DNA from: an uncultured Candidatus Poseidoniales archaeon
GTDB taxonomy: Archaea > Thermoplasmatota > Poseidoniia > Poseidoniales > Thalassarchaeaceae
NCBI GenBank assembly: GCA_905182515.1
Contig: CAJJBW010000006.1
Span: 62,001-126,000, forward strand
DNA length: 64,000 nucleotides
Direction: 5' to 3'
Every line of letters starts with the position of its first letter. The stretch's first letter is position 1. The notes under the pieces are model-generated. The model did not search any database, had not been told where the DNA came from, and saw nothing but the letters and a program-made list of their open reading frames with translations. Below, piece after piece: positions 35,430 to 42,171 of this stretch. The position numbers and the translations under genes were made by a program.

Positions 35430-36239
35430 TTACTCTTCCTTATCGCTAAGAAGTCCTCGAGACTCAGCGTAATCTCCGAGGGATTCTAATCTCTTCAACC
35501 ACCCCTTTGCTTCCGCACTTTTATTTGTTCTAACAATCCAAACCCGGCCGAATAATGTATCCCAAAGACCTAATTTAGAATCCTTACGGAACCTGTACAT
35601 GGCGTAGTCAATTAAAGGAGGTAATATCATCAGTAAACCTACTATACTGAATACCTTAGAAATAGTAGTATCTCCTAGTCCAGAACCAGATATGTTCAAT
35701 ATAGCATATAGTCCAATTAATACAAAAACAGTAGTTAGTCCTTTCAAAAATACATATCCCCAAAGCGGAGGATCACCACTAGTGTTCACATAACGTGTCC
35801 TACTTACCCAATTGCCCAAAGATCTGCCAGTTTGGGAAGGAAGTACAAGTAAATTTAGAATAACTAAAAGGATACCTCCAATATAAAGATATGTTGGATC
35901 GGAGTTTCCACCACTCAAACCAAGTCCAATGACAGGGATGCTCCAGCCATAACTAGCTGAAAAATCTACAAATCTGCGAGTTAATATTTGACCTCGGGTT
36001 GCATGTTCAAACCCTACTGGTAATTCTTTGACTACACGGGTTCTATTTGATCTAGGTTGTTTGGCTTTCTTTGGGACTCTCTCTTTTCTCTGTTTTTTAG
36101 ACTTCTTAGCTATTTTAACCGGATTAGGATCTAAAACTACCGGCTCTGGGGTGACAACTTGAGCTTTTAGGCCCGCAGATTTAGAATTTTCTTCAGTTTG
36201 AATTTTTCCTGCTTTTTCAAGTAAACCCATATATATCAT
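35430..36239 (-). CDS. RDD-family membrane protein
   Basis: A 269-residue protein with a highly basic N-terminal tail (KKSKKQRKERVPKKAKQ) and four helices. The RDD pattern is visible as LTRRFVDFSASYG in helix 1, QTGRSLGNWVSRTRYVNTSGDPP after helix 2 and GLWDTLFGRVWIVR near the C-terminus. RDD proteins are often transporters or stress proteins of uncertain substrate. Its ATG overlaps the stop of the EF-hand gene by 4 nt, so the two are co-translated. A second in-frame ATG lies 9 nt downstream. Confidence 0.7.
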   Translation of the reverse strand: MIYMGLLEKAGKIQTEENSKSAGLKAQVVTPEPVVLDPNPVKIAKKSKKQRKERVPKKAKQPRSNRTRVVKELPVGFEHATRGQILTRRFVDFSASYGWSIPVIGLGLSGGNSDPTYLYIGGILLVILNLLVLPSQTGRSLGNWVSRTRYVNTSGDPPLWGYVFLKGLTTVFVLIGLYAILNISGSGLGDTTISKVFSIVGLLMILPPLIDYAMYRFRKDSKLGLWDTLFGRVWIVRTNKSAEAKGWLKRLESLGDYAESRGLLSDKEE

Positions 36240-37183
36240 TCCCCGTATAGTTCGCCCATTCTCGTAAATATATCAAAATCAGGCGAGTTGACAAAATCAT
36301 TAATAGAATCAGGTGGTAGGTCCCCTAATACTTTGTTAATCATTATGAAAAAGGAATTGCGATCTTCATTAGATGACGATTGAGGGTTTGCCCCTATTTG
36401 CTCAAATAATTTGAAATCGGTAGACCCTACAAAGGAATTAATAAAATCTTCAGATGCATCGCCAAGTAAATCATTAACGATATTAAAGAATTTTTGGAAT
36501 TCATCTTTCGAATCGTCCAATTCAAGTATAGCCTCTACAAATTCATTAAAATCAACAGTACCAGAATTATTATTATCTGCAGATTTAAAAAAATTCTTTA
36601 ATTCATTGTTACTGAGATTAGATAAGTTATCTACTGGGATATTAGTAACTTCAGAAACTTTTGAAAGGAAGCCATCATCTTTCATTGACTCCATAAATTC
36701 ACTTAAGGTCATTGAATCATCTTTTTCAGGTACAGAAATTAATTCCACCGTAGGTTTTATTGATCGCATCTCTTGTTGTTCTTTCTTACGCAGCACGATT
36801 ATTTCTCGGTCTAGTTCTGAGCCAAATCTATCTTGAAATCTATCTAATAAAGTCCCTACTTCGCCTTTGGCTATTCTATCAATATGCCCGTACATACTTT
36901 GTTTGTTATCCGATCGAATTGTAGGGTCATTCGCTTTTCTTTTTTCCCATATTGATTTAAAATCTGTATTTGTTTGTAGTGAATTAGAAAAATCAAGGGC
37001 ATTTGCTGCATCGAGCAAAGTTTGATCCATGGCACCTAAAGGTTCAGTGCTATCAGAATTTAAAAAAATAGGAGGCGGCGCTGGCATTCCAGGAGGTGTG
37101 GGCAGAGTTATTCCAGGAGGAGGAGGAGGGAGAGGGAAGGGGAAATTTTTTAGTTGCTCTTCAATATCTTCATCCCCAGACAT
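36236..37183 (-). CDS. Cytosolic EF-hand protein with proline-rich N-terminus
   Basis: A 315-residue protein from the ATG at 37183, chosen because GTGAGG lies 4-10 nt upstream; the frame extends to a GTG at 37249. A proline-rich stretch (FPLPPPPPGITLPTPPGMP) near residues 13-33 is followed by helical sequence. At about residue 205 there is a canonical EF-hand calcium loop, DNNNSGTVDFNE, followed by FVEAILELDD. The last 90 residues have two repeated helical units (NSFVGSTDFKLFEQIG and NDFVNSPDFDIFTRMG). There is no signal peptide, so calcium would be sensed in the cytoplasm. It lies between priS and the RDD gene. Confidence 0.7.
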   Translation of the reverse strand: MSGDEDIEEQLKNFPFPLPPPPPGITLPTPPGMPAPPPIFLNSDSTEPLGAMDQTLLDAANALDFSNSLQTNTDFKSIWEKRKANDPTIRSDNKQSMYGHIDRIAKGEVGTLLDRFQDRFGSELDREIIVLRKKEQQEMRSIKPTVELISVPEKDDSMTLSEFMESMKDDGFLSKVSEVTNIPVDNLSNLSNNELKNFFKSADNNNSGTVDFNEFVEAILELDDSKDEFQKFFNIVNDLLGDASEDFINSFVGSTDFKLFEQIGANPQSSSNEDRNSFFIMINKVLGDLPPDSINDFVNSPDFDIFTRMGELYGE

Positions 37184-37252
37184 TGGCCTCACGAGTGTAG
37201 TGTGTAAATCTACATTATTGAAGGTTCTCCGAGTATGGGCTAATAACACGCA

Positions 37253-38476
37253 TTATTGCCGTTCAACTTCAGCCCATCCCTTCAAAATTAAGAACATTGC
37301 TAATGACTCATTGACGTTGACAATATCACCTGCATTACCAGTTACTTCGACGCCATCAAGGGCAGCCGTAACCTCGTCTGAGATTATTTTGAGTTTACTC
37401 ATTTTTGGTCCTTTGAATACTATTGATTCAGAAAGAGGATCAAATTTTTCCGGAGTATAGGGATTCAATCGATTAATAGGGAAATCTGTTACTTTTAATC
37501 CACATTTTCCATGTAAGCTACCCACACACCTTATCACTCTCTTTACGTCTACGGTTACTGCTTCGTCCGTTTCACCAGCATTTCCCAATACGACTGAAGA
37601 ATCGCCCTTAACTAATTCCCAAAAAAGAGGAGTTAATTTTTCACCAAATACCAATAACGTTTGATCAGATTTTAATCTCTCTATACGTCTATTATCTGTA
37701 GCTAATTCAGCTAATGTAGTAATTTTTTTGGATATTGTAGAAGGAGAATAGGATTTAACTTTGTTATCTGAGAAATTAGATCTAACAGATAAAATTTCAG
37801 AAAAGTTTTTCATTTCAGGATTTTTTATTGAGTTGTCGTCTGCAATATTTACTAATTTATTAATAACCGTGGAAATTCCATTTTCAACTCTATTTTTCCA
37901 ACTGCTATCAACTCCTGATAATGTAGTTTGTACATTTATCCCTTCCCCTCTTATGTGATTAACTAGTTCCCTTCGAGCATTAGAATCAAGATGGAATAAA
38001 TTAGGATCTCTTACATGGATATGAAAACCCCTATGACCCGAGAAAGATGTTTGCACATGTTCCTCTTTAAATCCAAATTCAGGCTCTAGAAAATCTGACC
38101 ATAAACTCCAGGCTTGTTCTTGAATAAGGCCTATCATACTAGGGAAATCTTTGTCTGAGACGCCAGGAAGATGATCCCCATCCAGGTCAAAGATTAAGTC
38201 TGCACCTAACCAATCTTTATCCAACATCTTTCTCTCAGAAGGATATTTGTAATACGCAGTACTATGAAAGCATGAATGAGGAGAACGGTTCTGTAAATAC
38301 TTTAATACTTGAGATTTGTCATTAAATCCTCTATGTCTATCGGGAGGACGTGAATCCCAGGGTATAAACATCCATTCCCTTCTCTTTAGTCTTGGAGGCG
38401 TCCATAAATTGCTTGCGCTAAGTGAGTTATAATACTCAGAAAAACGGAGAGCGTGTCTGCTCCAGCCTTCGGCCAT
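37253..38476 (-). CDS. priS: DNA primase small (catalytic) subunit
   Basis: A 407-residue archaeal/eukaryal primase catalytic subunit. ADLIFDLDGDHLPG holds the two catalytic aspartates (D-x-D), and SFSGHRGFHIHVRD is the SGxRGxH motif of the active site. REWMFIPWDSRP near the N-terminus is also typical. The ATG at 38476 is preferred over the TTG at 38488. It starts replication with the large subunit, which is not in this window. A small gene lies 25 nt upstream on the same strand. Confidence 0.93.
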   Translation of the reverse strand: MAEGWSRHALRFSEYYNSLSASNLWTPPRLKRREWMFIPWDSRPPDRHRGFNDKSQVLKYLQNRSPHSCFHSTAYYKYPSERKMLDKDWLGADLIFDLDGDHLPGVSDKDFPSMIGLIQEQAWSLWSDFLEPEFGFKEEHVQTSFSGHRGFHIHVRDPNLFHLDSNARRELVNHIRGEGINVQTTLSGVDSSWKNRVENGISTVINKLVNIADDNSIKNPEMKNFSEILSVRSNFSDNKVKSYSPSTISKKITTLAELATDNRRIERLKSDQTLLVFGEKLTPLFWELVKGDSSVVLGNAGETDEAVTVDVKRVIRCVGSLHGKCGLKVTDFPINRLNPYTPEKFDPLSESIVFKGPKMSKLKIISDEVTAALDGVEVTGNAGDIVNVNESLAMFLILKGWAEVERQ

Positions 38477-38513
38477 GCTGCCTAGCAAGAAGATTAGTGA
38501 ATTAAGTTTTCAA

Positions 38514-38708
38514 TTAATCAAGCCTAAGACCCTTGATATCTTTACCGTCCGTAGACGGTTTCGCACCAGTAATTTCTACATAAGCTTCCCAGCAGACATA
38601 TTGATTATCTAAGACTAAAGCTTCAGAGAAAGTCAAAGGTTTTCCAGTGATTGCACATATTGGACCTAATTGCCCTGTCGCAGTTGATAATTTAGATGGG
38701 TCAGGCAT
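38514..38708 (-). CDS. Small conserved-looking protein, 64 residues
   Basis: A 64-residue soluble protein encoded 25 nt upstream of priS. It has two cysteines (PICAITGK and QYVCWEAY), glycines and a LDNQYVCWEAY segment, with no repeat or membrane helix. The size and spacing suggest a co-transcribed partner. I recognise no family. Confidence 0.55.
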   Translation of the reverse strand: MPDPSKLSTATGQLGPICAITGKPLTFSEALVLDNQYVCWEAYVEITGAKPSTDGKDIKGLRLD

Positions 38709-38798: not shown

Positions 38799-39659
38799 AT
38801 GGATGAAAGTAATTCAACATACAGAATAGGCCACTCTCCCGATCCTGATGATGCATTCATGTTTTATGCACTTACTGAAGGTGGAATGAAAACTGAAGAA
38901 AGAGAATACAAACATGTTCTCCTTGATATTGAAACTTTGAATAAACACGCCATGAAAGGAGAGTACGAGGTTTCAGCAGTTAGCATTCACTCTTATCCAT
39001 TGATAGCAGATAAATATCATTTGATGAATTGTGGAGCATCAATGGGTGAGGGTTATGGCCCAATGTTGATATCTAAAAATGAATTAACAGAAGAAGAGGC
39101 TAAAAAGGAAGTTATTGCAATACCTGGCCTAGGAACTAGTGCTTATCTCGCCCTTAGACTAGCTTGGGGTGATGTTAATGTAGAAGTTGTACCATTTGAT
39201 GAAATCCTCCCTAGAGTTAACTCAGGAGAGTTTGCTGTAGGACTAATAATCCATGAAGGACAATTAACTTGGAAAGATGAGGGAGTAAAATTAGTGTTAG
39301 ATCTTGGAATTTGGTGGAATAACAAAACAGGATTACCGCTTCCACTAGGAGGTAATGTTGTAAGAAAGGATTTAGGCAAAGATTTATGCGAAAAAATTAC
39401 AACTGATGTTAAAAATAGTATTATTTGGTCTATTGAAAATCCTGAAGCATCCCTAAAATTTGCGAAAAAATGGGGGAGAGGGATAGATGATGAAACCAAT
39501 AAAAACTTTGTAGAAATGTATGTAAATAAAAGAACTATAGATTATGAAAAAGAAGGCAGAGAAGCAATAAGAGAATTCCTTAGACAAGGCATCGAAATAG
39601 GATTAGTTAATAAAGACTTAAAAATTGATGAAATAGAATTTATAGGATCCGGTGAGTAA
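38799..39659 (+). CDS. mqnD: 1,4-dihydroxy-6-naphthoate synthase (MqnD)
   Basis: A 286-residue periplasmic-binding-protein-like enzyme of the futalosine menaquinone pathway. The N-terminal GHSPDPDDAFMFYAL, the middle VSAVSIHSYP, the strand VGLIIHEGQLTWKDEG (with the catalytic histidine) and LPLPLGGNVVRKDLG are the MqnD signature segments. MqnD converts cyclic de-hypoxanthine futalosine to dihydroxynaphthoate. It is encoded directly before the HEAT-repeat gene, which begins at the next base, and faces mqnA-mqnE. Confidence 0.9.
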   Translation: MDESNSTYRIGHSPDPDDAFMFYALTEGGMKTEEREYKHVLLDIETLNKHAMKGEYEVSAVSIHSYPLIADKYHLMNCGASMGEGYGPMLISKNELTEEEAKKEVIAIPGLGTSAYLALRLAWGDVNVEVVPFDEILPRVNSGEFAVGLIIHEGQLTWKDEGVKLVLDLGIWWNNKTGLPLPLGGNVVRKDLGKDLCEKITTDVKNSIIWSIENPEASLKFAKKWGRGIDDETNKNFVEMYVNKRTIDYEKEGREAIREFLRQGIEIGLVNKDLKIDEIEFIGSGE

Positions 39660-40139
39660 GTGGAAAAAAATAAGCCAGAAATTAGTGATTTTGATTCTGT
39701 AGATCCTGCTCCACCGAGTAAAGAAAAAAATGTTCCTAATTTAAGGAGAATTTTGACAAATGAAAACGAAAGGATGTTTCAACGTATGAGGGCGTTATTC
39801 TCCCTACGAGGAATAGGTGGTGTCCATTCAGTAGAAGCATTGGCGGCTGCTTTTGATTCAAAATCTGCATTATTGAAACATGAGGTAGCATATGTCATGG
39901 GGCAAATGCAAGATCCACATGCCATCCCATTCCTTATTTCCAGGTTAGAAGATATTGAAGAAGATCTCATGGTGAGGCATGAGGCTGCAGAAGCATTGGG
40001 GGCAATCGGAGATAGGACTGCATTATTAGTACTTAGAAAATTTGAAACTGATTCAGAACCGGTTATATCAGAATCTTGCGAGGTTGCCTTAGATTTATTA
40101 GAATGGGTGGCCAGCAAGCGTTTGGACTATACAGATTAA
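39660..40139 (+). CDS. Half-size deoxyhypusine hydroxylase-like HEAT-repeat protein
   Basis: A 159-residue HEAT-repeat protein. KHEVAYVMGQMQDPHAIPFL and MVRHEAAEALGAIGD contain His-Glu pairs at 74-75 and 107-108, 33 residues apart, and SCEVALDLLEW follows. This closely matches one half of eukaryotic deoxyhypusine hydroxylase (DOHH), in which four HE pairs in two such halves hold a di-iron centre. A homodimer of this short form would give four HE pairs. DOHH makes hypusine on initiation factor 5A. The start is a GTG adjoining the mqnD stop (TAAGTG), with GGTGAG just upstream, so translation is coupled. It could instead be another metal-binding HEAT protein. Confidence 0.75.
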   Translation: MEKNKPEISDFDSVDPAPPSKEKNVPNLRRILTNENERMFQRMRALFSLRGIGGVHSVEALAAAFDSKSALLKHEVAYVMGQMQDPHAIPFLISRLEDIEEDLMVRHEAAEALGAIGDRTALLVLRKFETDSEPVISESCEVALDLLEWVASKRLDYTD

Positions 40140-40933
40140 TTCAAATTTAACCATGTAGGACTTTTATCCATTCCGCAAACTTCTGATAAAAATAATTCCA
40201 AGCCTTTTATTCCATCTTCATCCAACAAGTTACTTACCTCTTCTTCAAAATAATTAGAAATCCTAGCTTCAGAAAATACTAGTTTATCAGATGATTCTAA
40301 TATTACTTTTTCTCTAAAGATATTATCTGACTGGAATTTAATATATTGATTAACCATATCTTCTCTTGCAGATTTTAGAATTTCAATTGGTGAATCTTTA
40401 CGGGCTGCGAATACACCAAAAACCATTGGTAAGTTAGTAATTGTTGTCCATTCTGCGCCCAAATCTAGTCGAACTAAACTAGGAAAATTATGAGCAGCAA
40501 CTAAGGCTCTATCGCCAATTAATAAGGCGCCATCACACTTGGAAAGCATAATTTCCATATCTGGGCCGGTTTCTACAAATTTAGGATCTAGGCCTTTTTG
40601 TTTTAATAGCCATTTAAGGAGTACTACTGAAGTAGATGAATCTGAGGGCAGCGCGATATCTCTCATTTCTTCAATCGTTCTTGAGCCAAAAAGTAATACA
40701 GAACCTACTTTACCTTTGCTGACAATAGCCAGATCAGGAATAAGAGCCAGTTCATCAGAATGTTTTGCATAGTCCGCAGCAGGAATGGGTGCACATAGGC
40801 AGTCTTTCCTTAGAAGGTGCCCTGTAAGCCAAGATGGAGGTGCAGGAAGTATTTTCCACTTGGGGTCCATAGAGGTAAAAATTGGATCACAATTAGAAAA
40901 AGATACTCGGCCAAGAACTTGTTTCCAACTCAT
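40136..40933 (-). CDS. mqnA: Chorismate dehydratase (MqnA)
   Basis: A 265-residue enzyme of the futalosine pathway that removes water from chorismate to give 3-enolpyruvyl-benzoate. GRVSFSNCDPI at the N-terminus, CAPIPAADYAKHSDEL, LIPDLAIVSKGKVGSVLLF and SSTSVVLLKWLL are the MqnA blocks in order, and the later DGALLIGDRAL is also family-like. It converges on the DOHH-like gene with a 4-nt overlap and its ATG overlaps the stop of mqnE by 4 nt. Confidence 0.88.
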   Translation of the reverse strand: MSWKQVLGRVSFSNCDPIFTSMDPKWKILPAPPSWLTGHLLRKDCLCAPIPAADYAKHSDELALIPDLAIVSKGKVGSVLLFGSRTIEEMRDIALPSDSSTSVVLLKWLLKQKGLDPKFVETGPDMEIMLSKCDGALLIGDRALVAAHNFPSLVRLDLGAEWTTITNLPMVFGVFAARKDSPIEILKSAREDMVNQYIKFQSDNIFREKVILESSDKLVFSEARISNYFEEEVSNLLDEDGIKGLELFLSEVCGMDKSPTWLNLN

Positions 40934-42171
40934 TGTGACATCTCTTGATTTAGCAAAGGCATTGTTATTGAATTACTTTGAAGTGGAAATATTTCCTCAA
41001 ATTTGGTATAGATGGAATTCCTTTTAATTGGTTTTAAATTACAAGATTTTACTAAATTAGAAAGTTCATTTTTATTGAAATCTAATCTAGTTTTACTTCC
41101 TGCTTCATGCATAATTTCCTCATGTCCTACAGTTCCATCGATGTCATCGGCCCCTGATTTTATTGATAAGGTAGCAACATAATCTCCTATGTTCATCCTA
41201 TATGCCTTAATATGAGAGATATTATCTAGCATAATTCTCGAAATTGCTATTACGCGTACTATCTCAGAAGTAGTCGCTAATTGGGCTTCTGGTAACCTGG
41301 TTTTATCAGGTAAAAACGGATATGGGACGAAGCATTGGAAGCCGGAAGTTTCATCTTGTATTTTTCGTAATTTATCTAAATGTATTAGTCTTTCTCCTAC
41401 TGTCTCTACCGTTCCAAATAACATTGTACAATTAGATGGGATATCTAATGAGTGGGCTATGCCATGGATTTCTAAGTATTCAGCAGAATTTTCTTTCCCT
41501 CTGCAAATCCTGTCTCTGACTGAGTCGACTAGTATTTCAGCCCCGCCTCCGGGTATTGAATTTAATCCTGCTTCTTTTAGTGACTTTAGTGTATCATAAA
41601 CGGATAATCCAGACCGAGATGAAATATGTTTTATTTCCACTGCAGTTAAAGATTTGACATGTATATGAGGATATTTATCTTTTATTTCTTTATATAAATT
41701 AACATAATGTTCAACTGTCCATCGGGGATGTAATCCCCCTACAGAATGCACTTCGTCTATTATATCTGCATATGGTGCGATTCGGTGTAAGAATTCTGCG
41801 ATACTTAATTCATAGGCATCTGCATGCCTTGGGCCTTTGCGAAAGGCACAAAAGCGGCATGCAAGTACACAAATATTAGTAGTATTTACATGTAAATTTT
41901 CATTAAAAAATATATTTTTACTAAACCTGGACTGTTTAATTAAATCTGCTAGTGCACAAAGACCTGGAAAGTTTGGAGAATTATATATTTTTAAGCCATC
42001 AGAAATTCCAATCCTCCCTCCTGATTTCAAAATTTCTAAACAGTGTAAAAATAATGGATCATTTTCAACAGAAATAGGTATTTCTAATTCAGATAACTTT
42101 TCACGCCAGTCCAAATTTTCAATAAATAGCATACTCACCCGCACCTCTGATATGTTATCTGAATGAACCAT
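40930..42171 (-). CDS. mqnE: Aminofutalosine synthase (MqnE), radical SAM
   Basis: A 413-residue radical-SAM enzyme. The CxxxCxxC cluster motif is CVLACRFCAF, in the typical NTTNICVLACRFCAF context. EVHSVGGLHPRWTVEHY is characteristic of MqnE rather than MqnC, which lacks the GGLHP element. IPSNCTMLFGTVET and FQCFVPYPFLPDKTRL complete the family pattern. It joins 3-enolpyruvyl-benzoate to SAM-derived adenosine. The start at 42171 could be moved to the ATG at 42132, which has AGAGGTG 9 nt upstream. mqnA follows with a 4-nt overlap. Confidence 0.88.
   Translation of the reverse strand: MVHSDNISEVRVSMLFIENLDWREKLSELEIPISVENDPLFLHCLEILKSGGRIGISDGLKIYNSPNFPGLCALADLIKQSRFSKNIFFNENLHVNTTNICVLACRFCAFRKGPRHADAYELSIAEFLHRIAPYADIIDEVHSVGGLHPRWTVEHYVNLYKEIKDKYPHIHVKSLTAVEIKHISSRSGLSVYDTLKSLKEAGLNSIPGGGAEILVDSVRDRICRGKENSAEYLEIHGIAHSLDIPSNCTMLFGTVETVGERLIHLDKLRKIQDETSGFQCFVPYPFLPDKTRLPEAQLATTSEIVRVIAISRIMLDNISHIKAYRMNIGDYVATLSIKSGADDIDGTVGHEEIMHEAGSKTRLDFNKNELSNLVKSCNLKPIKRNSIYTKFEEIFPLQSNSITMPLLNQEMSQ

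Follow-up and report, generated by a model that had tools for sequence, protein, structure and literature searches.

A half-size homologue of deoxyhypusine hydroxylase in oxygen-respiring archaea, a candidate homodimeric di-iron enzyme

Introduction

In eukaryotes, an iron enzyme, deoxyhypusine hydroxylase (DOHH), carries out the last step in forming hypusine on translation factor IF5A. According to papers of 2016, 2018 and 2020, a DOHH homologue had been found in no archaeal genome, and some archaea contain hypusine despite this (PMC5178350, PMC6105217, PMC7773846). A later report of an archaeal DOHH was not found in the openly licensed literature. The papers to 2020 leave hypusine formation in some archaea unexplained, and a conserved candidate in widespread marine archaea, a single small protein, now makes the question testable. 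We describe this candidate in a stretch of Poseidoniales DNA (the window, 64,000 nucleotides in all), where an initial annotation had proposed a single-half form of DOHH that dimerises. The locus raises the question of whether this protein belongs with DOHH or with other HEAT-repeat proteins, how half an enzyme might build an active site, and what it might act upon.

Results and discussion

Gene and locus

The gene begins with a GTG codon that abuts the TAA stop codon of the mqnD-like gene before it. The features of the locus are as follows.

38799..39659, + strand: mqnD-like gene (VitK2_biosynth), directly upstream of the half-size gene, the pair being conserved in Poseidoniales; context only
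39660..40139, + strand: coding sequence of the half-size DOHH homologue, 159 residues, four HEAT hairpins
39696..39716, + strand: SVDPAPP motif, residues 13-19, N-terminal in the archaeal protein and before the C-half in human DOHH
39879..39884, + strand: His74-Glu75, counterpart of human H56-E57 and H207-E208
39978..39983, + strand: His107-Glu108, counterpart of human H89-E90 and H240-E241
40136..40933, - strand: mqnA-like gene (VitK2_biosynth), convergent, with a 4-nt overlap with the end of the half-size coding sequence; context only

The translation contains the two His-Glu pairs annotated at residues 74-75 and 107-108, 33 residues apart, and the contexts quoted for them (HEVAYVMGQMQ, MVRHEAAEALGAI and SCEVALDLLE) were all found as given. 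Among the 91 stop-to-stop frames of at least 100 residues in the whole window, the arrangement HE-x31-HE occurs once. The annotation had overlooked SVDPAPP, which is common to the archaeal N-terminus and to the segment preceding the human C-half.

Comparison with DOHH and other HEAT-repeat proteins

We compared the protein with solved structures using phmmer. The closest relative by sequence is human DOHH (PDB 4d4z, E 3e-70), which was matched twice and without gaps: residues 22-151 align with the human N-half (115 bits) and residues 5-149 with the linker and the C-half (121 bits). The identity to the two human halves is 45% and 47%. Generic HEAT and alphaRep chains reached at most 43 bits for their best single stretch among the top-ranked matches with alignments listed, a gap too wide for the resemblance to DOHH to be accidental. 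Pfam gave only HEAT_PBS and HEAT_2 above cut-off, and no NCBIfam model reached its cut-off. Scores of 36.9 bits for NblB (cut-off 300) and 23.7 bits for a second model (cut-off 330) place the protein outside the PBS-lyase HEAT family (NblB, CpcE).

The predicted fold gave the same ranking. The AlphaFold2 monomer (pLDDT 91.8, pTM 0.83) has four hairpins, with predicted helices at 25-33/39-52, 54-66/70-83, 86-97/103-116 and 119-127/134-154. Its best Foldseek match is human DOHH 4d4z (E 2.4e-11, TM 0.83), followed by the alphaRep group (E 6e-5, TM 0.65) and by CpcE (E 0.008, 20% identity). We reject a PBS-lyase or a generic HEAT protein on the phmmer, Pfam/NCBIfam and Foldseek scores. DOHH outscored bilin lyases and generic HEAT proteins widely, which is the comparison on which the annotation had staked its reading, and the proposed half-size DOHH homologue was borne out by sequence and by fold.

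The residues that matter for function are also in place. In human DOHH, H56, H89 and E90 together with H207, H240 and E241 anchor the two irons, and E57, E208 and G214 are among the residues that bind the deoxyhypusine side chain (PMC9117371). Once the numbering of the 4d4z crystal chain was corrected by a 5-residue offset, their counterparts in the archaeal chain are H74, H107 and E108 for iron, and E75 and G81 for the substrate. All five align without gaps with the human halves and are invariant in 31 aligned Poseidoniales homologues.

The archaeal protein thus resembles eukaryotic DOHH (human 4d4z, yeast Lia1) in its HEAT hairpins, in the positions and context of its His-Glu pairs, in the substrate-binding Glu and Gly and in SVDPAPP. 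It differs in its archaeal host and in having one half, four hairpins and two pairs, where the eukaryotic enzyme has two fused halves, eight hairpins and four pairs, and it would need to dimerise. Since the two-domain chain with four His-Glu motifs is a defining feature of DOHH and is lacking in these 159 residues, we class the protein as a half-size DOHH homologue, which probably works like DOHH. With PBS-lyase proteins (CpcE/CpcF, NblB) it shares the HEAT_PBS repeats, and with alphaRep proteins, which are artificial and designed as binding scaffolds, the repeat fold. The bacterial enzyme YfcM (EpmC) is a functional analogue only, set beside the archaeal protein by function and not by sequence; it is described as hydroxylating the modified lysine of EF-P, the IF5A orthologue (PMC4231759).

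Conservation and distribution

We found 238 relatives in GTDB contigs. The best 80 of these 238 are Marine Group II records or archaeal MAGs, encode about 156-164 residues and nearly always show the same gene order. In the same 80 loci there is no second half, no N-half was matched and the frame rarely extends far upstream. Both His-Glu pairs are kept in all 97 homologues that were fetched (with a spacing of 33 in 90 and of 32 in seven), as are variants of SVDPAPP, whose residues 13-18 are invariant and whose P19 is often A in the 31 aligned homologues.

A genome-by-genome profile search covering 390 Thermoplasmatota genomes identified about 100 carriers in the two families of Poseidoniales (Marine Group II) and nine strong matches (>100 bits) in six other families. 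The sequences fetched from these nine are half-size as well, so that the gene has this size in every genome in which we saw it. Neither a two-half form nor a conserved second paralogue was seen in the 390 genomes. Two apparent fusions (G033, 666 residues; G054, 320 residues) have a single DOHH domain each, and we read them as GC-rich spurious frames. HEAT proteins of about 290 residues in family f16 gave weak matches in multiple stretches, and the two that were inspected (L139, L140) are without paired His-Glu motifs. A heterodimer of paralogues was rejected on the evidence of G013, a genome of one contig (96% complete) in which the gene is single.

Where a genome has two copies, which is the case in a few, these resemble strain duplicates, the product of mixed bins or copies specific to a lineage. 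Two Poseidoniales bins (G323 and G319; loci L131, L132, L137 and L138) have two distinct copies each, by lineage-specific duplication or mixed binning. Four genomes (G108, G151, G116 and G290) have homologues that are split or carry in-frame stops, which are MAG errors or decaying copies. A search for viral, phage or plasmid relatives found none.

A candidate homodimeric di-iron site

Each half of human DOHH holds the ligands of one iron, i.e. the six ligands split three and three, and a homodimer of the archaeal chain would rebuild the di-iron site with its four His-Glu pairs. With one ligand set per chain and no conserved second half, a symmetric homodimer is the simplest route to two irons, and we infer that the half-size protein builds its site in this manner. 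The conservation pattern is as expected if one face of the predicted fold lines the active site and contacts the partner half: in the 31 homologues, 43 of the 63 residues on the second helices of the hairpins are in invariant columns, against seven of 43 on the first helices. This crowding identifies the conserved face as the one that bears the His-Glu pairs.

In the mechanism that we propose, two identical four-hairpin HEAT subunits would pack face to face. In each of them, His74, His107 and Glu108 would hold one iron, and Glu75 would take part in binding the substrate. The dimer would thereby restore the di-iron peroxo site with four His-Glu pairs for which eukaryotic DOHH has its two halves fused in one chain. 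Its reaction would be the hydroxylation, with O2, of deoxyhypusine, the side chain that deoxyhypusine synthase (DHS) sets on the lysine of aIF5A, in the loop SKPGKHGSAKAR. We consider it likely that the protein is such a half-size, homodimeric di-iron DOHH acting on aIF5A, although we infer the homodimer, the di-iron content, the catalysis and the substrate. If the homodimer is true, it would show how a di-iron oxygenase could have arisen on a non-enzymatic HEAT scaffold.

Hypusine pathway and oxygen respiration

The annotation had suggested looking for the deoxyhypusine pathway in the same genome. An aIF5A with an intact lysine loop is encoded on the same contig, 49 kb from the half-size gene; it was found with the M. 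jannaschii protein as query and was missed by the PF01287 profile in a search of the source genome. The assembly itself, which is 70.7% complete, yielded no canonical DHS; its sole visible DHS-family protein is divergent, with its best score to homospermidine biosynthesis. A second DHS-family gene, of about 300 bits, is present in eight of nine congeners, and the corresponding genes of other Poseidoniales score above the NCBIfam equivalog cut-off for deoxyhypusine synthase. The pathway is thus present for aIF5A in the genome itself and for canonical DHS in its relatives. Archaea in general have both aIF5A and DHS, and finding them here consequently does not test the substrate of the half-size protein. 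The divergent DHS-family gene accompanies the canonical one in Poseidoniales (L002 and L142:3626-4579; G000:C1:209134-210030). It scores about 130-160 bits to PF01916, and its best NCBIfam model, homospermidine biosynthesis, stays below cut-off.

Carriers of the half-size gene are oxygen-respiring lineages. Outside Poseidoniales, each of the nine carriers has COX1, which is present in 75 of about 262 genomes, an association of about 1e-5 if genomes are taken as independent and kinship is ignored. Some COX1-positive families are without the half-size gene, which is therefore not required for the use of O2. One of them, in the search of the 390 genomes, is a Thermoplasmatales-like family (f27), which shares 72-81% identity with Thermoplasma in the alpha subunit of the proteasome. 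The absence of the gene from this family fits the deoxyhypusine with little or no hypusine reported in Thermoplasmatales (PMC5178350).

Alternative explanations

The half-size gene adjoins menaquinone genes and not those for aIF5A or DHS. A dimeric oxygenase of DOHH fold could act on another substrate, e.g. in menaquinone biosynthesis beside mqnD and mqnA, and the adjacency to mqnD is indeed kept in both Poseidoniales families, with local rearrangements. This neighbourhood is absent around all nine carriers outside Poseidoniales. The linkage noted in the initial annotation is conserved across the order and absent from the other Thermoplasmatota carriers, and a linkage limited to Poseidoniales argues little for a different substrate. 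The identity with human DOHH goes beyond the iron ligands (GQMQ, MVRHEAAEALGAI, ESCEVALD and the assigned substrate-binding residues), and the lineage has both DHS and aIF5A. We regard another substrate as unlikely, and for the pairing with mqnD we prefer a conserved place in an operon to a role in menaquinone synthesis.

The main mechanistic rival to the homodimer is a monomeric enzyme with a single iron, in which His74, His107 and Glu108 would make up a 2-His-1-carboxylate site, a single half being enough. Each half of human DOHH does give exactly two His and one Glu per iron (PMC9117371), and the archaeal chain has only one such set. The published mechanism of DOHH involves a di-iron peroxo species (PMC9117371), however, and hardly any variation is seen on the concave face, even at a distance from the local metal site, which suggests a partner subunit; we find the monomer somewhat less probable still than a change of substrate. 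That the protein is an inactive PBS-lyase-like HEAT adaptor, with its DOHH-like sequence kept by descent, would agree with Pfam and NCBIfam returning generic HEAT/PBS-lyase families only. It is very improbable given an NCBIfam score so far below cut-off, iron ligands kept in 97 of 97 homologues and the wide margins by which DOHH beats CpcE and generic HEAT proteins. The length, about half that of human DOHH, and SVDPAPP, the segment before the human C-half, might also point to a pseudogene or a C-terminal fragment of a full-length DOHH. This is refuted by the conservation of a standalone half-size gene: every relative that was fetched, whether from the two families of Poseidoniales or from several others of Thermoplasmatota, has an intact frame of the same length, and no N-half was matched in the best 80 of the 238 loci, as described above.

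Origin of the half-size form

In a tree of DOHH halves, which is unrooted and has no outgroup, the eukaryotic C-halves fall among those of archaea, at a weak support of 82/66, and the eukaryotic N-halves lie outside on long branches; the eukaryotic rows, those of yeast included, are few. That SVDPAPP stands both at the N-terminus of the archaeal protein and ahead of the C-half in eukaryotes suits a fusion without proving it. We tentatively suggest, as a possibility that we hold at somewhat less than even, that a homodimeric half-DOHH in oxygen-respiring archaea is ancestral and that the eukaryotic enzyme arose by its duplication and fusion, SVDPAPP being what is left of the N-terminus of the second gene copy. 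Alternatively, archaea may have lost the N-half. A homodimer, if true, would show a possible way of building a eukaryotic enzyme by gene fusion.

Other genes of the neighbourhood

The half-size gene lies within a futalosine-type menaquinone cluster (38799-42171 of the window; mqnD-like, mqnA-like and radical SAM genes) that is found order-wide in Poseidoniales. The radical SAM protein of this cluster is MqnE/MqnC-like and scores below both equivalog cut-offs. Two further genes stand beside the mqn and half-size genes in most Poseidoniales loci: one for a DNA primase small-subunit-like protein (37253-38488) and one for a conserved 64-residue protein of unknown function (38514-38708). Also conserved in the neighbourhood is a protein (36236-37249) that has an EF-hand motif and a stretch rich in proline.
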